From: Pollenia angustigena
Lineage: Eukaryota; Arthropoda; Insecta; Diptera; Polleniidae
Length of the DNA stretch: 64,000 nucleotides
NCBI GenBank assembly: GCA_930367215.1
Contig: OV884056.1
Location: 277,928,067-277,992,066 of the forward strand
Direction of reading: 5' to 3'
The notes below the pieces were generated by a model, which made no database searches, was not told the origin of the DNA, and saw only the letters and a program-made list of their open reading frames with translations. Positions 9,141 through 63,015 of this stretch are shown piece after piece. How positions within the stretch are numbered: the first letter of the stretch is position 1; the number at the start of each line of letters is the position of its first letter. The translations under genes were made by a program, and so were the position numbers.

Positions 9141-9480
9141 CTGTGATGGCATCACATTTGAAGAAAATTCTAATTTTGTTTTTAAAATGCTACTGTAATA
9201 CTTCATTTTAGTTAAAAGTCACAATTTCTGTCTGAGTGGATAAAAAGAAAATGTTAAATAAATATCTTGGCAATAATGACATGAAAATATCATAAATCAT
9301 AAACACAAACCACAAAATATAGACAGAAAAAATGATTGATGAATCGTAAATTCGAAATTGTCTAACAGAATTGGGGTATAAATTATGTATTTTCTAGGAA
9401 CCGTGTGCGAAGTATTATAAATATCTTAAATAAAAAAGTGGTATGCCTATGCTTATAGATGTAATCTTAAGTTCACTATT
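9141..9480. other. AT-rich stretch, nothing recognised
   Basis: No gene, RNA or repeat copy was recognised between the H2 repeat and the small hairpin at 9481. Confidence 0.45.
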
Positions 9481-9606
9481 GTGCTGTTTTCACAACACAA
9501 GTGATTGGACGTGTAGTAAAATTTGTGTGGAAAACACTCAAAAAACTGAGTGCTTTTCATATAAATTTCACTACAAGTGCAGTCACTTGTGTTGTGAAAA
9601 CAGCAC
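9481..9606. mobile_element. 126-bp foldback micro-MITE
   Basis: The outer 24 bases of each side are perfectly inverted (GTGCTGTTTTCACAACACAA.. at 9481-9504 and its complement at 9583-9606). The inner parts pair less well. The whole unit would form one long hairpin. No target duplication was found with confidence. Confidence 0.65.
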
Positions 9607-9965
9607 ATATGTTACAAATAATTACCCCTATTTTGAAAGTCAGTGTCGACACGAATCCTTTAAAAAAAACCAAAAGTCGGAAAATATCATAAAAAGCGTT
9701 AAAAAATTATCTTTAATGATGAAGAATAAAAATAAAAGAAAACTAATTGGAGATTGGATTTATTTTTGTGTTAGATTTTCGATAACAAGTCCACGTCGAC
9801 AAAACTTTCTTATAAAATACCAAACTAACGTCAAAGTGATGTAAGCGTCGACTTGATGTGACAATAATAAAAAATTAATGCCGACTTCGACAACAACTTA
9901 CAAAATAGGGCTGTATATTTTCTTAAATCAAATTGTGATCTCTTATAATTAAAAAAATTGATTAA

Positions 9966-27309: not shown

Positions 27310-28026
27310 CAGTCAAAGCCCGGTATAACGAATACGCAGTTTAACGAATATCCGATATAACGAATGGCCAAATTTTTACATTAACTACCTTGTATAGCGA
27401 ATGGCAAAAAAAAAAAAAATAATCCCGATTTAACGAATGACAAAGCAAAAAAAAAAAAAAAAATCGGAATAGAACCGTTAGATTTTTGTGTGTGTTTTTG
27501 GCTTCTTTGCTTTGTATTAAAGCAACACGTGTGATGCGTTGCTTTTTTCGTTAAAGTTTCAGTAGATTTGTTTGGTTCATTGTGAAAACGAGATGTCAAA
27601 TCGAAAAAGAATCTCTTTTTTTTTAAAAATTAAAGATTTTAGAAGAGTCTAAGAAAGGTGCAAATCTTTCAGTAAGGGGTGATTCACACACGTCAAGTTT
27701 GACTCGTCAAGTCTTGAGTTTTTAAGAGAGAGGGGAAAAGATATGACATTCGCAATTCCCTTCTCTCCTTAAAGGTCAAGACTTGACGAGTTAAACTTAA
27801 AGTGTGTGAACCGCAGTTGATATTCCAAAAGTATGGAATAACAAAATCTTATTAAAGTTTTATATATACACCAAATTATGAATACAATTAAATTTTGATG
27901 TTTTTTTAATTGTGAACCACCATTTTTTATAAAATTTTAAGGTAAAATTACTGATCGATATAATGAATATCTCGGTATAATGAAAGGTCTGAACATTATA
28001 TCATTCGTTAAACCGGGCTTTGACTG
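27310..28026. mobile_element. pogo/Tigger-like MITE nested in H2
   Basis: Inverted ends CAGTCAAAGCCCGGTATAAC and the complement of CAGTCAAAGCCCGGTTTAAC, with ATAACGAAT motifs repeated inside, are typical of pogo-type Tc1/mariner elements. The left end abuts TA; the right TA is not preserved. No transposase. A smaller foldback (about 27678-27813, inverted GATTCACACACG and CGTCAAGTCTTGA blocks) is nested in it, making three levels of nesting. Confidence 0.65.
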
Positions 28027-39728: not shown

Positions 39729-39940
39729 ATTTTAAAGAATAATTAGTATTGTGGTTATTTTGTTGAACCATTTATGGTTTTTTAATCCAAATTTTTAATA
39801 TTTTAATTAGGCTTAAGTTCATGAAATTTAATTTTTATTAAATTATTTTTATGAAGAAAGGAATTTTACAACATGAAAATCAATCCAAATTGTTATTAAT
39901 AATCTTTCATTCTTGACGTGGCTCGGGCTCGAACCCTGGC

Positions 39941-39993
39941 CGGCAGGTTACCATGACATGTTTCGATCGCAACCACTCGATCTCCTCAGATGG
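39941..39993 (-). ncRNA. Candidate hammerhead ribozyme in the inverted arm (truncated)
   Basis: On the minus strand: CCAT (39993-39990), CTGAGGA (39989-39983), stem II GATCG/CGATC, GAAA (39964-39961), CATGTC, then ATGG (39954-39951). The core is complete, but the outer 5' strand of stem I is lost because the inverted arm ends exactly at CCAT. Confidence 0.6.
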
Positions 39994-40153
39994 AAAAAAC
40001 AGAAGTAAAGGAAAAAACATGTAAAAATCAATTAAAATGGATAATCATTCAGGAAAGCAAATTTCGATCTACCAAATGTTAAAATACAATTTGGTTTAAG
40101 GATTGATGTTTGACTAGTGACGTCAGCAGTCGTTGATGGCTGCGAGTGTAAGA

Positions 40154-40214
40154 CGGCAAATCCATCTGAGGAGATCGAGTGGTTGCGATCGAAACATGTC
40201 ATGGTAACCTGCCG
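40154..40214 (+). ncRNA. Candidate hammerhead ribozyme (family 1)
   Basis: Complete hammerhead consensus: inner stem I CCAT (40162-40165) with ATGG (40201-40204); outer stem I CGGCA (40154) with TGCCG (40210-40214) beyond an internal loop; core CTGAGGA (40166-40172); stem II GATCG/CGATC with an 8-base loop; GAAA (40191-40194); cleavage triplet GTC ending at 40200. Stem III is just ACATGT, a perfect palindrome, so efficient folding probably needs two molecules. The copy at 47949 changes both sides of stem I and stem II together, preserving pairing. Confidence 0.8.
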
Positions 40215-40719
40215 GCCAGGGTTCGAGCCCGAGCCACGTCAAGAATGAAAGATTATTAATAACAATTTTGATTGATTTTCATGTTGTAAAATTCCTTTCT
40301 TCATAAAAATAATTTAATAAAAATTAAATTTCATGAACTTAAGCCTAATTAAAATATTAAAAATTTGGATTAAAAAACCATAAATGGTTCAACAAAATAA
40401 CCACAATACTAATTATTGTTAAAGCTAAGGCACGAGCTCTATGTGTACATTTGTCCTTCAAGTTGTGCTGAAAAAGGTCAACAGAAAAGAGAAAGACAAA
40501 GGGAAAAAAAAACAAAAAAATGTACTTGGACTTCAAGAAAAATTCTTGACGAATGTACGAAAAAACAGAAGTAAAGGAAAAAACATGTAAAAATCAATTA
40601 AAATGGATAATCATTCAGGAAAGCAAATTTCGATCTACCAAATGTTAAAATACAATTTGGTTTAAGGATTGATGTTTGACTAGTGACGTCAGCAGTCGTT
40701 GATGGCTGCGAGTGTAAGA

Positions 40720-40780
40720 CGGCAAATCCATCTGAGGAGATCGAGTGGTTGCGATCGAAACATGTCATGGTAACCTGCCG
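40720..40780 (+). ncRNA. Candidate hammerhead ribozyme (family 1, second unit)
   Basis: Same sequence as the motif at 40154, exactly 566 bases downstream. The core CTGAGGA is at 40732-40738, GAAA at 40757-40760 and the predicted cut after 40766. Two ribozymes in tandem could release a unit-length 566-nt RNA. Confidence 0.8.
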
Positions 40781-40940
40781 GCCAGGGTTCGAGCCCGAGC
40801 CACGTCAAGAATGAAAGATTATTAATAACAATTTTGATTGATTTTCATGTTGTAAAATTCCTTTCTTCATAAAAATAATTTAATAAAAATTAAATTTCAT
40901 GAACTTAAGCCTAATTAAAATATTAAAAATTTTAAAGAAT

Positions 40941-41597
40941 TTATAAAACATTTTTGTGTGCCAGGTGGCTGGGTGTTCCAACAGAAATTTATAAAATTCT
41001 CCCACTATCCTTTATTATAAAGGTTTTTATTATACAAGCCACATAAAACAATGAAAACCTACACGATTGCCACCCATCAATAACAAAGAACGACGAAAAG
41101 GTAAAATGCCTGGGTAAATGAAGTATGTTTTGGGCAGACTAAAATGTAAATTATACTTCTACTTAAAAATACATAAATGTATAAAATTAAAAGGAAATGA
41201 ACACAAACTTAAAAGCAAAACGTTTTGTTGTTTTCGCCCCTTGCTGGGCTACCTTCATAAAAAGGAAATGCGAAAGGTTTAAAGAAATTGTAGAAGTAAA
41301 AAATAAACAAAATAATTTTTTTCTTTTTTTTTCAAAACAAAATAATGAATTGTGTTTTCTAATTTTTGTTACTAAACAAACAATTTATTTACTGAAAAAA
41401 AATAGTTTTTCTGTTAGAAAATCATTTGCATGTTTAAGGATTCATTTTGTTTTTGTCAGGAGAGTATTTTATTATTTTTAGCTTAAATGGCAATAATTAA
41501 TGTCCAATCATTCTCCACATAAAGCAACAAAACAAACTTAAGCACACCTTCCACGGGAAATGTCCCTAAAATCACATAAAACGTATTCTCGTTCTTA
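40941..41597. other. AT-rich stretch, nothing recognised
   Basis: The 94-codon frame at 41197-41481 has no recognisable domain. Confidence 0.4.
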
Positions 41598-42573
41598 AGT
41601 CCCAATTCACACGTTGCATGTCTTATTGATCAGCTTGCTACTTTATAACGAGAGTGAAGAGAGGAAAATTAACGTTTCTCGCTCACTCTCTCTCGCCTAT
41701 AAGGTAGCAAGCAGTGATGCCAACTAAGTGCTTTTGGCATTATTTATGGTGCTTTTTGATACCTCAAAACGCCAAAATTTTATCCATAGTGCCAAACTAA
41801 GAAAAAGCACTAACTTGGACAACATATTTAGTACTCGTAATAAAAAACGATGTATTTGTCTCAAAAATAGAAAATGGCTTAAAAATATTAGGAATTGTGA
41901 ATGGAAAAATAAACAAAGATTAATAGTCATGTAGAAAAAACGTTTTGAAAAGTTAATAAACATGCAGTCGGAAACCATACAAAAGAACGCAAAGACTTAA
42001 AAAACAAAAACAGAGCCGTAATTTGGTATAAGCAAAGTTTGAAATAAATTAAAAACTGCTGACAGAAAATGCTTTTATAACGAGCGTTGTGTTACCTGCC
42101 ATTTTTCATGCGCTTTAGTTTTTAAACGCACGACAATCGTCTCCAAATAACCGCGTGTTGTGCACTTCTTCCTTGAGTGCTATTGTAAAAAGGTTTGACA
42201 ATATCATACGCCAATTGTTTTATTAAACTTTGCACGATTTTAATTTAGATTTATTTAAACGATAAAATATAAGTTTTTTTTTTATCAAATAAGGGCTGTC
42301 ATTAAGTTTAATAAACAATGGTCGGTCATTGCAAATTTTCGGTAATTGCAACAGGCCAGGCTTTTTCTAGCTACGATATCGAGCTCGCACTGTATTCGAT
42401 TGCAACTTGTTTTGTGTTTAATTAAATTGGAAAAATGGCTTAGTGCACTTTTTTTGTTCGAAATAGTGCTTTTTAGTGCTTTTTTTAAATTTTAAAGTGC
42501 TTTTTGCTCTCAAAAAGTTGGCATCACTGGTAGCAAGCTGATCAATAAGACTTGCAACGTGTGAATTGGCACT
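41598..42573. mobile_element. MITE with CCAATTCACACGTTGCA ends, split by a hAT element
   Basis: Ends AGTCCCAATTCACACGTTGC and the complement of AGTGCCAATTCACACGTTGC continue as matched GTCTTATTGATCAGCTTGCT blocks. Without the nested hAT element it would be about 150 bp. Confidence 0.75.
41712..42529. mobile_element. hAT-type non-autonomous transposon
   Basis: Ends CAGTGATGCCAACT and AGTTGGCATCACTG are inverted. The 8-bp duplication is GTAGCAAG (41704-41711 and 42530-42537). The subterminal AAAAAGCACT motif is repeated several times on the right, as in hAT binding sites. No transposase. Confidence 0.9.
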
Positions 42574-43139
42574 AAGTATATAAACATACATTCATACTTG
42601 TACTTGTATCTACAATTTTTTTTGTCGAGTGTGAGAGAAAAATTGCTTTTTATAAGTGAATAATTGTACGATGGTTTCTCTTTTATTTAAAAAAATAAAA
42701 AGATTTCAAAAATTATTTAGTAAAAGTGCAATTTAGAAGATGATTTTATTGCTAATAAAAAAAAGTATTCAAATAACGAGTTTTATTTTACTTGTTTTGA
42801 TCGTTTACACATCACTAGTTCATTTTGTACAATTAATAATTTTTTGAGCTTTAATTTGTGAAATTGAAAAATATATCGAGGGTTGTTTTCCAAATAGTGC
42901 TATCTGAAAAATCACAATTTTACAGGAGAGTGAAAAAACTGATTTTTTCGATAACTCTAGGAGTTATAACTAAACTTTATTTTACAATATTATGAAAAAT
43001 TAACGTCTAAATCATACATACATTAATTTTATTTTTTAATTCCAGATATTCGCGCTTACATGTCTGATAGCACTATTTACAAATTAAAATTTTATCGACT
43101 TGAACATTGAAATAAGCAGATCGCACCACTGCGGTCCCC

Positions 43140-43495
43140 GTTAGCCAACAGTCAAACATCAATCTTTAACCAGTAGTACTGGTGGTTCGAAATTTGCTGT
43201 TATTATCACTTAAATTTCAGATTACATGTTGCCTCCTTTTTCCTCTGTTTTTTCGTATTCTTTCTTTCAAGACTTTGCAGTGGTGCAGTGGGTAGAACAG
43301 AAAGATCTTCTGGCGGTAGCAAGTGGTGTTTCTTGAAACATGTAAAGATCAACCCGGGTTCAAATCCCAGCTCAGCCAAGAAAAATTATCAATAAATTTT
43401 AACAAAAATGCCAAGTTGTAAAATTCCTTCCCTCAGTGAAAATAATTTAATGAAAATTAAATTTGATGAACTCAAGCCTAATTAAAGAATACCAA
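43140..43495 (+). mobile_element. Hammerhead family 1 variant copy
   Basis: The left part (43150-43260) matches the family body in inverted direction (AGTCAAACATCAAT, TCGAAATTTGCT, CTCTGTTTTTTCGTA). From 43381 to about 43490 the family tail follows in plus direction (TTGTAAAATTCCTT, GAACTCAAGCCTAATTAA). Between them is a ribozyme-like fold with a degenerate core. No target duplication was identified. Confidence 0.65.
43304..43350 (+). ncRNA. Degenerate hammerhead-like fold (family 1 variant)
   Basis: Stem I is a perfect 6-bp pairing of a different sequence (GATCTT 43304-43309 with AAGATC 43345-43350). GAAA (43335-43338), the palindromic ACATGT and a GTA cut site are kept. The first core strand reads CTGGCGG instead of CTGANGA, so it is probably inactive. 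Confidence 0.5.
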
Positions 43496-43949
43496 AATTT
43501 TACACTAACGTTTATTGAAAATCAATAAATAATTTAACTTTATCCACATATTTTAAATTATCATAAAAATATTGATACTCTTGCGAAATAGCAAGAGGCC
43601 GATTATAAGGGTTTCGCTTCTATTTATCTGATCGCTGCACAGTGTGGGAAATTTGGAAAAAATGGAAATAATTCTATATTTTATAAACGGTTGGTCCGAT
43701 TGGAATGCAGTCTTGGATTTGAGGTCTATAGACTTAGCAGGAGAGGTGCTATAGGTTCCCAAATTAGGACATCTCAGGTATAACAAAAACTAAAAACGAT
43801 CCTTAATTCTTAATTTTAGCTGGATGCTAAAAATAATTTTTTAGAGAAATGCGCTTGCCGAGTACTCCATAATTGGTCCAGTATTTTGGAAATATAAGAC
43901 TCAAATTTATCATAATTTGTTTGAAATATGTCAAAAAGATTTTGTTTGT

Positions 43950-44110
43950 CGTGCTTTATACCTAATTTTTATTTTTGATAAAAAACACTGAAATTTATTG
44001 CTGATGGGATAAGCTATTAACATACGCATTTCACTGGTTGCATAGGCCAGATCATCAGGAAACTTCTTCCAAAGATTTTAGAAAATTTAAGGACATTATA
44101 CAAATAAATT
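43950..44110 (-). mobile_element. Hammerhead family 2 repeat, copy B (partial)
   Basis: Matches copy A (576-840) from the TTTTTGATAAA..CACTGAAATTTATTG zone through the ribozyme to AAAGATTTTAGAAAA and TTATACAAATAAA. The upstream half of the family is missing. Confidence 0.65.
44010..44065 (-). ncRNA. Hammerhead-like motif (family 2, copy B), likely inactive
   Basis: CTGATGA (44058-44052), stem II CTGG/CCAG and GAAA (44032-44029) are conserved. The position of the cut site reads ATG, not a cleavable NUH triplet, and stem I is weak. It appears decayed relative to copies A and C. Confidence 0.5.
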
Positions 44111-44129
44111 CGCTTAACAGTTTTATTTG

Positions 44130-44225
44130 TATAATATCATGTACAAGTAAATTTTGGCCATGACTTTGTCTGAGGTGGTCCATTCGGACGGTCCAATTTT
44201 GGGCGAATCGTTCGACTTTGTATGA
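44130..44225 (-). pseudogene. mariner-like transposase, C-terminal scrap
   Basis: The minus frame reads FAQNWTVRMDHLRQSHGQNL, matching the C-terminal block of the mariner fragment at 8000-8690. Nothing else of the gene is visible. Confidence 0.7.
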
Positions 44226-44229
44226 CCCG

Positions 44230-44919
44230 ATATGTGTATAATAATTGTGCAATATGAATACTAAAGCGGCTCATACACTTGCAATAAAATTGTTCAATTT
44301 TACGTATTATACAATTATATCGCCAATGTGTATGCGATATTCGGTGGTAGCACAATATATTGGCAACAATCGAAAGGCTTGATTTTTATTGCACAACGAA
44401 AAGAAAGTGAAATGTGTTGGCAACATTGTACAATGCTGTTTATGTTATTCCTATAGGTTATGTTTTATTGAATGAATGAATATGGCGAATATCATATACA
44501 ATAATATTGCAAGTGTATGGGCCGCTTAAGACCCGTGCTTGGTAGCCATTATATTTCTAAAAAACACTAATTTTAGGGAATTTTCGGCTGTTTTTTTTGG
44601 GAATTTTGGTGTTCATTTTGTAAGTTTAATAAAATTTTGAGCTGGTTTGTATTAAGCATTAAAACATGTATTTACTTTTAAAATTTCATTAAATAATATT
44701 AGCTAACAAAGATTTTATTAGATAAATTAAAATTTATATTGTTTACAAAAACTCATAAAACAATTTTTTGCAGTTTTTTTTTGCAAAATTTCTACAACGA
44801 ATTTAAAAATTATAGTAGTTTATGAAATCTAGACACAATTCCCAACCCTTTGATGTATAATGTGTCTACTTTTTAATAACACTTTTTATCATTTTATTAT
44901 ATGAAGTAATATTTTTTAT
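44230..44919. other. AT-rich stretch inside the large element, nothing recognised
   Basis: Contains loosely inverted ATTGTACAAT-type text around 44250-44520 (GAATATCGCATACAC-like motifs and complements). No gene was seen. Confidence 0.35.
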
Positions 44920-44927
44920 GTAGATAG

Positions 44928-45596
44928 TAGTGCTGGGAAACTACCGATAGACTATCGATATTATCGTTAGTCTTAAAATATCGAAAATATCGATAGGAAA
45001 AATATAAATATCGATATTTTTATTTTTTAAAATACTGCTATGAAGACATCTTACAGCAGCTATACACACACAGTTTTTTGCCGCAAATTTTTACTTGCTA
45101 TTATTAATTCGCACTGAGTAACAGCAATGAATACAAACAACAAGAATGACAAGTGGTATGGATTGCTTAGCAGTGCTTTTTACTGCTAATTAAAGGTCTT
45201 TAAGTCGAAATTTTTACATGTTTATATAGGGACTGAAATGTCAAATATTTTTGTAATGTTGTAAAAAAATGCAATTGCAAGCATAGGGTTTTTTTGGGTT
45301 TAGAATTTGGAAAACTTTTTAAAGTTGCAATGGAATATCTTATAGTCCCAGTTACTTCGGTTCTTTCAGAAAGGTACTTATCAATTTTAAAAAAACTACC
45401 ATCTAAAATAACGTGTGTATATACAAACGTCTCATACATTCAATAAAGTGATAAAAACAACGGACTGTTGCTTATAAAAAAATAATTCATTTTTCCTGCA
45501 CAAGTACAAACATTCAGTCGATAGTTATATCGATAGTGAAATCTGAACTATCGATAAATATCGATAGTAGAAAATATCTATAGTATCCCAGCACTA
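44928..45596. mobile_element. hAT-type non-autonomous transposon with ATCGATA motifs
   Basis: Ends TAGTGCTGGGAAACTA and the complement of TAGTGCTGGGATACTA are inverted. The 8-bp duplication is GTAGATAG (44920-44927 and 45597-45604). Both subterminal regions are packed with TATCGATA motifs in either direction, likely transposase sites. No transposase. Confidence 0.88.
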
Positions 45597-45796
45597 GTAG
45601 ATAGCACTTTTTTACAAAAAAAAAAAACGTCTGTGTTAGAGAGCACAAAACAACATTTATGAAAAAAACGTTTTGGAATTTTTTTTTTTTTCAAATTTAA
45701 ATGACATGTGACCCTTCCGTCAGTGAACACGTTGCTATAAAAATAAATGTTTTGAAAAATTTCAGATAGCACTATTTGAAAAATAACCCTCGATAT

Positions 45797-46627
45797 TAAT
45801 AATATTCAAACATATTTTTGAATTTCATTTTATTATTAAAGCAGAAATACATACATAATAATATATTGAATGACAATTTCTCTCAAAAATGTTCAAAATT
45901 TGCATATACACAAAGAAAAAAGCAAAAATGTCATTTTAAAATAGGTTTAAACAAGCTAATTTTCGAACCAATTTTAAAATTCGCTTATTCACACAAGGTT
46001 TAAAATAGGGTTTTTAAGGTAATATTCGCTTATGAATACAATTTTAACGATTTATGCTTAAAACAGATTTGAAATGATGTTTAAAATGTTTATGAATACG
46101 GCTGTTAAAATTCAAAGCAAATAAATTTTTAACTGATTATAACAGTTATTCAAAAAACTAATTGCATGTAAATACGGATTTTCAGTTGCAGCTCATATTG
46201 TCCGTTGATTAAGTAAAATTATTCTTTATGTAAAATTAAATGAAAATGTAATTTAAAGTAATGAAAAGTTAATTAAATTTTAACTGTCAAAAATTCAACA
46301 GCGAATTCCGTAAAAACAAATGAATTGTCAGTTATTTTATATAATTTAACTACCAAAAATAAATTTTTCCTTATCTATAAAAAACGGTTTGCTTGTTTTG
46401 TGTAAAACAATTCCCAGTTTTTATTTGTTAAAATAATTAAGTTAAATACATACATCAAATTTTAAAAGTAAAATAATTGCAAAGCCATATCGGCCATGCT
46501 GCTGGTGTCTTATAATTGAGATTTATTCTGTAAACAACGGGGTCAGTACAACAAAAGTAAAACAAACGTGTGTACGGGGGTGCCAGATGATTTTGGTAAG
46601 AAAGCGGCATATTTTCAAAACAAAAAA
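45797..46627. other. AT-rich stretch, nothing recognised
   Basis: No credible gene or repeat copy was seen. Confidence 0.4.
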
Positions 46628-47471
46628 GGCGGCATGAAATAACCCCCCAAAAAAATAATGAAATAACCCCCAAATCGTGGGGCCTTATTTCATATGCAAT
46701 AAAGCCCCAATTTTGAAAATGAAATTAGCCCCCAACGAAATGAAATAACGCCCCAAACATAAATGAAATAATTTCCTATTTTTTGGGGGTTTATTTCATA
46801 TGAAATAAAACCCCAATTTCTGAAATGAAATAAGAGACCAATATATTTAATACAATTATTAATACAGTTTTGACATTCTTTCAAGAATCACGCGATAGAT
46901 ATCATTGTATGATATACCAAACACAAGCTTCGCCAACTAAGGCTTTTCTGCATAGCCGGTCTTCGGCTGGGCGCAATGACTTTTTCCTCTATGGAATAAC
47001 AAACACCGGCTTCGCTTACTAAAGCTTCTCTGCATAGTGCCAGGATTTTCTCCTCTATAGAATAAAAATACCGACTCGACCAGTCTACGCAGAGAATCTT
47101 TAGTTAGCGAAGCAGGTGTTTGGTACACCATATAGAAGAAAACCATTGCGCAGGGCTGAAGGCCGGTTATGCAGAGCAGCTTTATTTATCGAAGCCGGTG
47201 TTCTGTATACCAAAGCGGATAAATCCTTACGCCCAAAAACGTTTTCATTATAAATTTGGCAATGATATAATCCCCCACAAAAATATATTGGGGCTTTATT
47301 TCATAATGATTTTTTGGGGGATAATTTCATATGAAATAATACCCCAATTAAAAAATAGAATAACACCCCAAACAAAATGAAATAACACCCCAAAAATCGT
47401 TTTTGTTGTTCTCTGTACAAACTTTTGGGGGGTTATTTCATTATTTTTTTGGGGGGATATTTCATGCCGCC
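46628..47471. mobile_element. Foldback element with iterated GAAATAACCCCAA arms
   Basis: The outer ends GGCGGCATGAAATA and their complement match over about 45 bases. Each arm (46628-46845; 47265-47471) is built from many copies of ATGAAATAANNCCCCAA, some joined as the palindrome TATTTCATATGAAATA. The core (46930-47230) has GC-richer, partly inverted units around CTCTGCATAGCCGGT and CTTCGGCTGGGCGCAA. No ORF. A partial relative is at 13385-13960. The flanks are A-runs, so a duplication cannot be judged. Confidence 0.75.
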
Positions 47472-47747
47472 AAAAAAAAAACGGCATTGTCGGCAATTTA
47501 ATTTAAAAAAATCGGCAAACCAAAAATACATTTTTAAAAAACAGTAAAACATTTTTTTAGAAACAAAAAAATAACAAAACAGAACAATTAAGCATAATTT
47601 ATGTGTATATTCTCTTCTTTAGGGTAAATTGTTTTAAGGTGTTGTACTTTTTGTTATTATAGATACATATGAGCTTGACATTTTTATTTAATCCTAAATT
47701 TTAATATCAGCATCAAAATAGTTTAAAATTTTAAATTTGAAATAATC

Positions 47748-48539
47748 ATTAGTATTGTGGTTATTTTATTGAACTATTTATGGTTTTTAATCCAAATTTT
47801 TAATATTTTTAATTAGGCTTAAGTTCATTAAATTTAATTTTCATTAAATTATTTTTATGAAGAAAGGAATTTTTCAACATGAAAATTTATTAAAACTTAT
47901 TGATAATTTTTCATTCTTGACTCAATCTGGGCTCGAACCCAGGTGTTTACGGACAGGTTACCCTGACATGTTTCGATTGTAACCACACAATCTCCTCAGA
48001 GGGCTTGCCGTTTAACACTCGCAGCCATCGACGACTGCTGACGTCATTAGTCAAACATCAATCCTTAAACCAAATTGTATTCAACCTTTGGTAGATCGAA
48101 ATTTGCTTTGAATGATTATCTATTTTAATTTTATTTTAACATGTTATTCCTTTACTTCTGTTTTTTCGTACCTTTGTCAAAAATTCTTCTTGAAGTTCAA
48201 AGTACATATTTTTTTTTGTTTTTTCATTTTTTTGTCTTTCTTATTCTTGTTGACCTTTTCAGCACAACTTGAAGGACAAATGCAAACATAGAGCTCGTGC
48301 CTTAGCTTTAACAATTATTAGTATTGTGGTTATTTTATTGAACTATTTATGGTTTTTAATCCAAATTTTTAATATTTTTAATTAGGCTTAAGTTCATTAA
48401 ATTTAATTGAGATTGAGATTGAGTCAAGAATGAAAAATTATCAATAAATTTTAATAAATTTTCATGTTGAAAAATTCCTTTCTTCATAAAAATAATTTAA
48501 TGAAAATTAAATTTAATGAACTTAAGCCTAATTAAAAAT
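47748..48539 (-). mobile_element. Hammerhead family 1 composite, second locus
   Basis: Minus-strand unit with tail, ribozyme, body, head, and then a second tail copy (48315-48405 repeats 47750-47850), finishing with a tail segment in the opposite direction (48425-48539). The whole is bracketed by a 13-bp duplication ATTTGAAATAATC (47735-47747 and 48540-48552). It is divergent from the 39.7-kb locus, but its ends are the same, so the inverted/tandem architecture is a property of the family and not an accident of one locus. Confidence 0.8.
47949..48011 (-). ncRNA. Candidate hammerhead ribozyme (family 1, second locus)
   Basis: On the minus strand: outer stem I ACGG/CCGT, inner stem I CCCT (48003-48000) with AGGG (47964-47961), CTGAGGA (47999-47993), stem II GATTG/CAATC, GAAA (47974-47971), cut triplet GTC. 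Relative to 40154, stem I changed CCAT/ATGG to CCCT/AGGG and stem II GATCG/CGATC to GATTG/CAATC: two paired, compensatory changes with the core untouched. Confidence 0.8.
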
Positions 48540-48552
48540 ATTTGAAATAATC

Positions 48553-49109
48553 TTATAATGAAGAATTCCTTTCAAAGATAAATTTTGTTTTATTTAGTTG
48601 ACTTGGCTAAAAAAATTTTCTACTGTGGCGGAAGAATGTGAAAGCACCATAAATTGTTAGAAATGAACCTGCAGAAGTCTCACTTTTAAATCAGAATTTT
48701 TTGGGCAAAAATTTTAAAAAATTTACTTGACTGTCATACAAAAGATTGGAAATCTAATAGTTGATTTAGGCCCTAAATTTGTAAAACGCAACGCAATCCC
48801 AAAAATAACATTGAAAGCAAAAACAATGTCAAAAATTTTTCAAAATTTTATTGTTGCTTTCTATAGAAATACATATTGCGTTTTAAAATTATCAACGCCA
48901 CAAGATATGCAGCGTTTAAAATTTAAAAATTCAATATACATTTCTATAGAAAACAACAACAAAATTATGAAATATTTTCGATTTTGTTTTTGCTTTCAAT
49001 ATAAATGCTGGCGTTGCGTGTGCGTTTTACAAATTTAGGGCCTTAAATTTTTTCATTAAAAGTGAATATATATTTTGCCAAAACTTTTTTGTAAGTATCG
49101 ATCTACATA
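48553..49109. other. AT-rich stretch, nothing recognised
   Basis: A frame at 48727-49038 lies in partly inverted text (CCTAAATTTGTAAAACGCAACGC and its complement near 49010-49045), so this may be a foldback repeat and not a gene. Confidence 0.4.
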
Positions 49110-51323: not shown

Positions 51324-51896
51324 TGTTGGCGTCTGGCTGGTGTGAACCGGGTGTCCATATTTGATTGTGTGCAACTGGACTACATGTGGTGGTGGCATCT
51401 GGCAACGCCTCGTGTGGTATGTCACCTGAAAACGAATTCGCCGTGTTTCTTTTAATTGCTAATTAAAACTTCAACCAGCCGGACGCCAGTAAATAAGAAA
51501 AAATTAAAATTTAATAAATTAAATAAAAAGAAAAGAATAAGAAAAAACTAAAAAGTGGTAAACTTGTGAATCGTGAGGGAAAAGAAGCCAAGAATAAAAC
51601 CAGAGGAAATTGGGAAAAAAGGAGTTTTCTTTTAATAAAAAACATTTGCCATTCGTCGTATTGCCGGTATGCCGCGCCATAAGGGTGGTTTTTAAGTGTT
51701 GTACTTGCTCTTTGGACCTGCCTCAACCGGTGGATTACCTCATTGCCATATCCCCAGCCACAAGTGTACTTCCGCGCCACAGCCCTTGCGCCTTACGTAC
51801 CCCATCACTCACTGCCCATCGGTGAACATTCCCGCCTATTGCCCACCTCCTACTAGAGCCAGCTGTATCTACCAGGTAAACGTCTATACCCCAACA
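51324..51896 (+). repeat. 5' LTR of the BEL element
   Basis: TGTTGGCGTCTGG...CCCCAACA, 573 bp. A possible poly(A) signal AATAAA lies near 51593. CAG|GTAAAC near the end (51875/51876) could act as a splice donor. Confidence 0.95.
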
Positions 51897-58578: not shown

Positions 58579-59151
58579 TGTTGGCGTCTGGCTGGTGTGA
58601 ACCGGGTGTCCATATTTGATTGTGTGCAACTGGACTACATGTGGTGGTGGCATCTGGCAACGCCTCGTGTGGTATGTCACCTGAAAACGAATTCGCCGTG
58701 TTTCTTTTAATTGCTAATTAAAACTTCAACCAGCCGGACGCCAGTAAATAAGAAAAAATTAAAATTTAATAAATTAAATAAAAAGAAAAGAATAAGAAAA
58801 AACTAAAAAGTGGTAAACTTGTGAATCGTGAGGGAAAAGAAGCCAAGAATAAAACCAGAGGAAATTGGGAAAAAAGGAGTTTTCTTTTAATAAAAAACAT
58901 TTGCCATTCGTCGTATTGCCGGTAAGCCGCGCCATAAGGGTGGTTTTTAAGTGTTGTACTTGCTCTTTGGACCTGCCTCAACCGGTGGATTACCTCATTG
59001 CCATATCCCCAGCCACAAGTGTACTTCCGCGCCACAGCCCTTGCGCCTTACGTACCCCATCACTCACTGCCCATCGGTGAACATTCCCGCCTATTGCCCA
59101 CCTCCTACTAGAGCCAGCTGTATCTACCAGGTAAACGTCTATACCCCAACA
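58579..59151 (+). repeat. 3' LTR of the BEL element
   Basis: 573 bp. It differs from the 5' LTR only at 58924 (GGTAAGCC here versus GGTATGCC at 51669) in a base-by-base comparison. Followed by the duplication ATACT (59152-59156). Confidence 0.95.
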
Positions 59152-59729: not shown

Positions 59730-60000
59730 CGTTCTTAATTCCCAATTTCTATTTTTGATAAAAACACTGAAATTTATTGTTGATGGGATAAGCTATTCCT
59801 ATGCGCATTTCACTGGCTGCCAGATCGTCAGGAACCTACTTCAACCATAAAGATTTTAGAAAAACTAAAGATATTAAACCAAATAAAACTGCAAAAACGT
59901 ATTATAAGCAACAGTTCTACTTGTAACAATATCAAAGTTTAAACAGGAACATCAACCATAAACAGTGAGTTTATCTCTTCTTACAGTCCCAACTACAATT
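59730..60000 (-). mobile_element. Hammerhead family 2 repeat, copy C
   Basis: Matches copy A over its whole length, from TTAATTCCCAATTT through CACTGAAATTTATTG, the ribozyme, AAAGATTTTAGAAAAACTAAA and TACTTGTAACAATATCAAAG to AACAGTGAGTTTATCTCTTC. It has a shorter stem II loop than copy A. Confidence 0.7.
59791..59838 (-). ncRNA. Candidate hammerhead ribozyme (family 2, copy C)
   Basis: CTGACGA (59831-59825), stem II CTGG/CCAG with a 3-base loop, GAAA (59811-59808), palindromic stem III ATGCGCAT and cleavable ATA, with the cut between 59800 and 59799. The core differs from copy A only at the free N position (C for T). Stem I pairs only the first three or so bases here, so activity is doubtful. 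Confidence 0.55.
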
Positions 60001-62555: not shown

Positions 62556-63015
62556 TACACGCAGAAAAAAACATGTTTAAATATGGTCACCTCCAACAAA
62601 ACTATTTTTAAAGAACATTTTAAGCATATTATGTTTAATATTATCACCAACAGCCATATAATGGTTAAATTAGTCCTCCATCAAGAAGCCACAGCCATAT
62701 TATGGTTGCCTCTAAACACCATATGGTTTAATATGACAATAATTTGTTTTTAAATTAACAATATCTTTTCCAAGAGCAATATGCTATGATTGAAAACCAA
62801 CCATGCTCTTATAACTGTTTATTATGTTTTAGTTATTTTTAAACACAACATGTTCGGAGGCAACCATAATATGGTTTTGGCTGCTTGATGGAGGACTAAT
62901 TCAACCACTATATGATTAATGGGCAAATAAAACAAATTATGTTTAAAATTATCTTTAAAAATTGTTTTGTTGGAGTTGACTGTATTTAAACTTGTTTTTT
63001 TCTCTGGGTGTAGGA
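62556..63015. mobile_element. Foldback MITE with 200-bp arms
   Basis: The left arm (62556-62755) and right arm (62820-63015) are inverted: CGCAGAAAAAAACA versus CCCAGAGAAAAAAACA at the ends, then CTCCAACAAAAC, TTTTTAAAGA, GTCCTCCATCAAG and CCATATTATGGTTGCCTC. A third, direct copy of the left arm is at 63636-63800. Confidence 0.7.

Follow-up and report, generated by a model that had tools for sequence, protein, structure and literature searches.

Hammerhead-bearing repeats in the genome of Pollenia angustigena: candidate retrozymes with insertion ends resembling those of Penelope-like elements

Two repeat insertions with hammerhead motifs

The stretch of DNA analysed here, called the window, comprises 64,000 nucleotides of the genome of the fly Pollenia angustigena (contig OV884056.1, positions 277,928,067 to 277,992,066 of GenBank assembly GCA_930367215.1). 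It contains two insertions of a repeat family carrying hammerhead ribozyme motifs, which we interpret as a probable non-autonomous retroelement of the animal retrozyme kind, mobilised by the Penelope-like elements (PLEs) of its host. Element 1 (39741–40928) and element 2 (47748–48539) are each flanked by target-site duplications (TSDs) of 12–13 bp. Each consists of two arms on opposite strands, with one outer end at each of two unit positions, sites A and B, defined below. The range 39741–48552 given in the original prediction for this window starts at the left end of element 1 and stops at the end of a TSD of element 2. The features are as follows.

39729..39740, left TSD of element 1, ATTTTAAAGAAT
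39741..40928, element 1: minus arm 39741–39994, plus arm 39993–40928; site B at the left outer end, site A at the right
39951..39993, minus strand, hammerhead motif of the minus arm of element 1, stem I CCAT/ATGG
40162..40204, plus strand, hammerhead motif of the plus arm of element 1, stem I CCAT/ATGG; predicted cut after 40200
40201..40766, plus strand, full 566-nt unit of element 1, between successive predicted cleavage sites
40220..40230, plus strand, B box of element 1, GGTTCGAGCCC
40363..40414, plus strand, stretch between sites A and B (the position of a 'tail'), with AACCATAAATGGTT and the AC-rich CAACAAAATAACCACAATACTAAT
40728..40770, plus strand, second hammerhead motif of the plus arm of element 1, stem I CCAT/ATGG
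40929..40940, right TSD of element 1, second copy of ATTTTAAAGAAT
47735..47747 and 48540..48552, TSDs of element 2, 13 bp
47748..48539, element 2, with a minus arm that reaches about 48408 and a short plus arm that begins near 48416; outer ends one each at sites A and B
47929..47939, minus strand, B box of element 2, GGTTCGAGCCC
47961..48003, minus strand, hammerhead motif of the minus arm of element 2, stem I CCCT/AGGG, stem II GATTG/CAATC

Four hammerheads had been predicted, and the four cores (CTGAGGA...GAAA) lie where they were placed, at 40166–40194 and 40732–40760 on the plus strand and at 39961–39989 and 47971–47999 on the minus strand. The paired differences between the loci (stem I CCAT/ATGG against CCCT/AGGG, stem II GATCG/CGATC against GATTG/CAATC), the stem III sequence ACATGT and the 566-nt spacing are also as described there. 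On its own the loose CTGAGGA...GAAA pattern is weak, with nine matches in the window against 2.3 expected and a largest shuffle of seven.

The repeat is abundant in the host assembly (31 contigs, 1,370,458,813 bases). Exact matches to the 30-base core pattern, which covers two families, number 11,536 + 11,320 = 22,856, compared with 0 and 0 for the reversed control; multiplied by 566 bp, and counting exact cores only, this amounts to about 13 Mb, or near 1% of the genome. A CTGATGA version of the pattern occurs at 377 + 346 places (723; control 1 + 1), and several further stem II sequences appear among the 100 of these that were listed. Both strands of the stems change between families: stem I is found as CCAT/ATGG, CCCT/AGGG, CTAT/ATAG, ATCTT/AAGAT, GAATT/AATTC and GAACT/AGTTC, and stem II as GATCG/CGATC, GATTG/CAATC, AAGAAT/ATTCTT, AGAAA/TTTCT, GGGAAT/ATTCTC and others.

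Covariation of the hammerhead stems

The collected rows contain a type I hammerhead core (CUGANGA and GAA(A), with H17 before the cut). Since the rows were gathered by that core, its constancy is by construction and does not count as evidence. The comparison concerns stems I and II in rows of several families: 55 distinct rows were listed and 54 aligned, L080 being left out for its long insert. Earlier omissions were L056 (judged to be a chance match), L001–L008 (which overlap with other loci) and the PLE loci L049–L052; for the CTGATGA rows, 40 places were picked from the 100 listed, mostly for a varied stem II. In the 54 rows, 81.8% of the cells are paired (60.1% in shuffled rows), 148 cells are changed on both sides (65 shuffled) and the covariation score is 0.586 (0.237 shuffled), with none of 500 shuffles as high in any of the three, although kinship among the rows inflates these statistics. 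When one strand of a stem is slid by one to three columns in either direction (−3 to +3), all five covariation measures drop. The hammerhead fold is thus supported by the covariation that the original prediction had looked for. The Rfam match that it had also looked for does not appear: the window gives no hammerhead at the gathering threshold or at E values up to 10.

Stem III (ACATGT) is invariant in the rows and would form at most two pairs within a monomer, compared with six between two RNAs (duplex −4.6 kcal/mol). PLE hammerheads reportedly act as dimers, to judge from the title of a 2017 paper. Dimer action is known for the newt and axolotl hammerheads (PMC7229834; PMC6155905; partial texts). 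We propose that the RNA of the present repeats would self-cleave. A candidate pairing of loop II (GUGGU) with an (A/G)ACC following stem I was also spotted by eye.

Head-to-head arrays with two outer ends

To describe the insertions we mapped 40 loci, in addition to the two in the window, to units and kept 49 arrays. Exact core matches in the first 6 Mb of a single contig (C1) supplied the 40 loci, with places 4662838, 5306060 and 5954104 left out; arrays were excluded when shorter than 100 bp or when less than 40 bp from the end of their locus, and the set includes two near-copies (L010 and L011). Head-to-head arrays, in which arms built of ~566-nt units point outward, make up 28 of the 49. 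Their outer ends recur in two classes about 50 nt apart, A (unit position 145–200) and B (205–232), the limits of which were set after inspection of the ends. Of the 28 arrays, 22 pair an A end with a B end (AB arrays), and neither AA nor BB occurs. A common string of at least 10 bp is present in the two flanks of 23 of the 49 arrays, some strings being of low complexity, compared with 2.3% for randomly re-paired flanks. Such strings accompany 18 of the 22 AB arrays, most of which show duplications of 10–15 bp. We infer that one A end and one B end reflect two priming events on one RNA, for which site B cannot serve twice.

The inner ends, at which the arms join, scatter over the unit: three of the 56 are no more than 10 nt from the cleavage site, where 2.1 would be expected. 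Three arms had seemed to start at the cleavage site itself, a placement that the junction sequences and base-by-base extension did not confirm, and we accordingly dropped the idea of reverse transcriptase (RT) run-off at a cut 5′ end.

Inverted arms and tandem units would also be expected of a foldback DNA transposon whose arms are terminal inverted repeats, or of a satellite spread by unequal exchange, and satellites bearing hammerheads are known. However, the outer ends differ (A against B) and do not mirror each other, the inner ends scatter, and duplications of 10–15 bp flank most AB arrays, so that we regard such an origin as very improbable. The original prediction of a mobile, retrozyme-like element agrees with the TSDs, the recurrent outer ends and the likeness of units within arrays described next. 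We conclude that the hammerhead motif is genuine and that the element has been mobile.

Units within an array and the nature of the template

For the comparison of units, 47 full units of 560–582 nt were taken from 20 loci. All 38 units that have a sister find their nearest neighbour in their own array, opposite arms included. Units of the same arm are on average 0.992 identical (75 pairs, minimum 0.904), those of opposite arms 0.990 (seven pairs from three loci) and those of different arrays of one family 0.966 (449 pairs). Arrays can be long, with 13 cores in succession at locus L014. Taken together with inner ends that show no preference for the cleavage site, this likeness within arrays fits a circular or multimeric template (a circle copied more than once, or an uncut multimer) better than a cut linear monomer.

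The tandem units carry the hammerhead and no open reading frame (ORF), and no Pfam domain was found in a full tandem unit (one frame of one unit). At ~566 nt they are too short for the RT and GIY-YIG frame of a PLE. As an observation apart, a unit of locus L024 (2482–3048) shifts along its length from U2-like to U1-like, as if by template switching or recombination.

Penelope-like elements of the same genome

A search of the host genome for GIY-YIG gave at least 19 matches (150 of 493 candidates scored). At L049, RVT_1 is above the Pfam cut-off and GIY-YIG just below it (22.2 versus 22.6 bits), while at L050 GIY-YIG is above it; the first frame and span submitted to Pfam for L049 (3300–4601) gave nothing, and another frame and span gave the domains. 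Among 37 relatives of the PLE protein, the 13 named matches, which do not include the nine best, are all from flies (Haematobia, Musca, Calliphora, Rhagoletis and Eurosta). These 13 of 13 support the fly host that had been predicted.

L049, L050 and L051 have small hammerhead-like motifs of their own, different from that of the retrozyme. One of these motifs has 82 + 85 exact copies genome-wide (control 0). Past it, 20 copies stop at 78–86 (10 copies), at 110–128 (eight copies) or at 39 and 45 (two copies), L111 and L112 among them sharing a flank. By eye we recognized three PLE arrays that are head-to-head, combine the two kinds of end and have a duplication of 10–12 bp.

PLE array L049, duplication AAATTATTTT
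PLE array L096/L097, duplication ATTTTATATGT
PLE array L115, duplication AATAATTCTTAA

Judged by these ends and duplications, retrozymes and PLEs of one genome have a common insertion anatomy. PLEs are considered a strong, albeit unproven, candidate for the mobiliser of animal retrozymes (PMC7229834; partial text). The common anatomy could also mean that the repeats are simply broken PLEs, that is, solo pseudo-LTRs (long terminal repeats) of a PLE bearing this hammerhead, with no separate non-autonomous lineage. A PLE pseudo-LTR likewise contains a small hammerhead, and the 24-base stretch that precedes the B site of the PLE has its best ungapped match near the retrozyme B site in U1 (17/24) and a tied best match there in U2 (16/24), a weak likeness. 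However, the unit searched is devoid of a Pfam domain in the one frame scanned, the PLEs sampled here bear different hammerheads and the B box discussed below is kept in most retrozyme families; we consider this explanation unlikely. Separately, a family-A retrozyme lies close to a PLE fragment at locus L053 (C1:202300200–202304300).

A putative RNA polymerase III promoter

In the inspected flanks a B box begins about 11–27 nt downstream of the cleavage site. Of 87 distinct flanks, 53 have a perfect copy and 16 more match at eight of nine positions, compared with 0 and 0.8% among 1740 shuffles, although flanks from the same family are not independent in this count; the box is retained in most families. 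Ahead of the ribozyme, an A box matches perfectly in four of the 87 flanks and at eight of nine positions in 19 (shuffles 0.4% and 4.5%), most clearly in families C and D. In this picture the hammerhead takes the place of a tRNA anticodon arm. ARAGORN finds no tRNA in 95 flank pairs, with the ribozyme retained or excised, nor in the window, so that the use of RNA polymerase III (Pol III) is put forward as a proposal: the element is perhaps Pol III-driven through its B box.

A B box and long TSDs are equally familiar in a short interspersed element (SINE) moved by a long interspersed element (LINE), in which inversions would arise through twin priming and the hammerhead would be a passenger or a processing signal; the schistosome Sm-alpha is SINE-like with a hammerhead (PMC2770079; partial text). 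Yet the present repeats end at two sites inside a closed unit, with both strands usually primed, as in the PLEs of this genome. Moreover, no poly(A) or simple-repeat tail was seen in the array flanks inspected, LINEs not having been searched for. A SINE of this type therefore seems to us distinctly improbable.

Proposed mechanism

Building on the covarying stems, the recurrent A/B ends, the TSDs, the likeness within arrays and the same anatomy in the sampled PLEs, we give a probability of about three in four to the reading that the copies are a non-autonomous retroelement of the animal retrozyme kind, mobilised by the PLE machinery of the host, including the following steps. The arrays would be read through into RNA, perhaps from the internal Pol III promoter, and this RNA would be cut once per unit by the type I hammerhead with its palindromic ACAUGU stem III, then closed into a circle of ~566 nt. 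The endonuclease/RT of a host PLE would cut both strands of an AT-rich target, 10–15 bp apart; priming on one and the same RNA would use site B for one target strand and site A for its partner, the template being copied round more than once in some cases, and the two complementary DNAs (cDNAs) would be joined head to head. A more specific form, to which we give roughly even odds, is that two PLE RT units prime both strands of one double cut at two adjacent sites of one small RNA circle, which they copy in rolling-circle fashion into a head-to-head cDNA pair, one with and one without the tail. In this form PLEs would be the helper of an animal retrozyme, and retrozymes would gain a defined insertion mechanism.

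A close known parallel is PAc, a PLE of Anolis (PMC11167929). It resembles the present repeats in having a small hammerhead upstream of two RT start sites that bound a tail, a tandem layout, AT-rich targets, and both strands cut and extended; it differs in that the repeat here has no ORF and another hammerhead. In vitro, the RT starts of PAc are internal and bound the tail, which is called unique to PLEs (PMC11167929).

Several results weigh against our interpretation. In PAc the two strands showed no difference in RT start, hammerhead mutants still inserted and the RNA-seq ends are not at the hammerhead cut site (PMC11167929); with no strand difference and with cleavage dispensable in vitro, PAc does not predict the one-A-one-B pattern or the cleavage proposed here. 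Six of the 28 head-to-head arrays are not AB (four combine B with another end, one combines A with another end and one has neither), and PLE array L114 has one end at A and the other at neither site. The tails of retrozyme and PLE are not significantly alike, 194 and 232 of 1000 shuffles being as good. Two subfamilies are mixed in the one array of L024, and later exchange between units could also produce the likeness within arrays. Two of the five covariation measures do not exceed the shuffles, namely double-change pairs (9 versus 9.3) and further pair types (24 versus 24.3). Rfam finds no hammerhead in ten related loci at E values up to 1, and minimum-energy folds of single sequences are not clearly better than shuffles in any of four cases (z from −1.43 to 0.49). 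On the other hand, Rfam likewise gives no hammerhead in five L050-type PLE loci and one L049 stretch of the same genome, which carry PLE hammerheads.

This silence of Rfam and of folding, added to a core whose conservation follows from how the rows were gathered, would suit a motif that is real and yet functionless, with covariation left by old selection and present copies that do not cut. Against this, the two commonest families sampled show paired differences in stem I as well as stem II, and their likeness marks them as young, which leaves such a loss of function hardly credible.

If our interpretation of PLE-mobilised retrozymes is correct, the new element in it would be evidence on the machinery that mobilises an animal retrozyme and on the way it does so. 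The A/B ends of the sampled young insertions resemble a PLE tail and stand beside PLEs showing the same, which makes the question of the helper testable, and the many copies constitute a record of how two cDNAs get joined. The head-to-head layout, the two outer stop sites, the likeness to PLE insertions, the B box and the further families had not figured in the original prediction.

Comparison with known hammerhead elements

The element goes with the animal retrozymes, from described members of which it appears set apart by its unit length, head-to-head layout and PLE-like stop sites. Like the animal non-LTR retrozymes of PMC7229834 (partial text), it combines a type I hammerhead with tandem repeats that are low in GC and lack an ORF, thousands of copies and, when present, long TSDs; insects are named there as hosts. 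Unlike theirs, which typically measure 150–450 bp (a typical size and not a definition), its units are of ~566 nt, and head-to-head arrays with two fixed outer ends do not figure in that text. According to a review (PMC7761336), animal retrozyme repeats have no conserved motif that points to their autonomous mobiliser.

The schistosome Sm-alpha/Sj-alpha repeats (PMC2770079, PMC8490949; partial texts), likened here by description alone, are also small, with a type I hammerhead, a tRNA-like region and thousands of copies, although theirs resembles tRNA-Gln whereas only the boxes are found here. Plant LTR retrozymes (PMC4918200; partial text) are hammerhead repeats proposed to spread through circular RNA; they differ by their type III hammerheads, LTR features and 4-bp duplications. 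Hammerheads are also reported in delta-like circular RNAs, by a paper that mentions Diptera in its abstract (PMC7936874). We found no earlier report of the present element in the open-access papers searched, as covered by titles and the openings of abstracts, with subscription papers mostly outside.

Other features of the window

A relict of a related family (C) lies between the two elements, with a hammerhead-like sequence at 43304–43349 in which the core is mutated (CTGGCGG).

43150..43501, relict of family C, made of an inverted piece and a plus-strand piece

A second hammerhead-like family (GTTTC CTGATGA TCTGG..CCAGT GAAATGC(GC)ATA GGAAT, with a palindromic stem III) is seen on the minus strand of the window at 655–684, 44029–44058 and 59808–59831, and at loci L024, L034, L035 and L051; it is in tandem in L051 (472 bp apart) and in opposite orientations in L035. 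A stretch of 573 bp occurs twice in the window (51324–51896 and 58579–59151) with 99.8% identity, and may be a recent duplicate or a mobile element. Short repeats such as ATGAAATAACCCCCCAAA occur at 46628–47471 in both orientations, and comparison of the window with itself reveals imperfect palindromes at 48765–49046, 62563–63003, 9480–9607 and 27683–27810.

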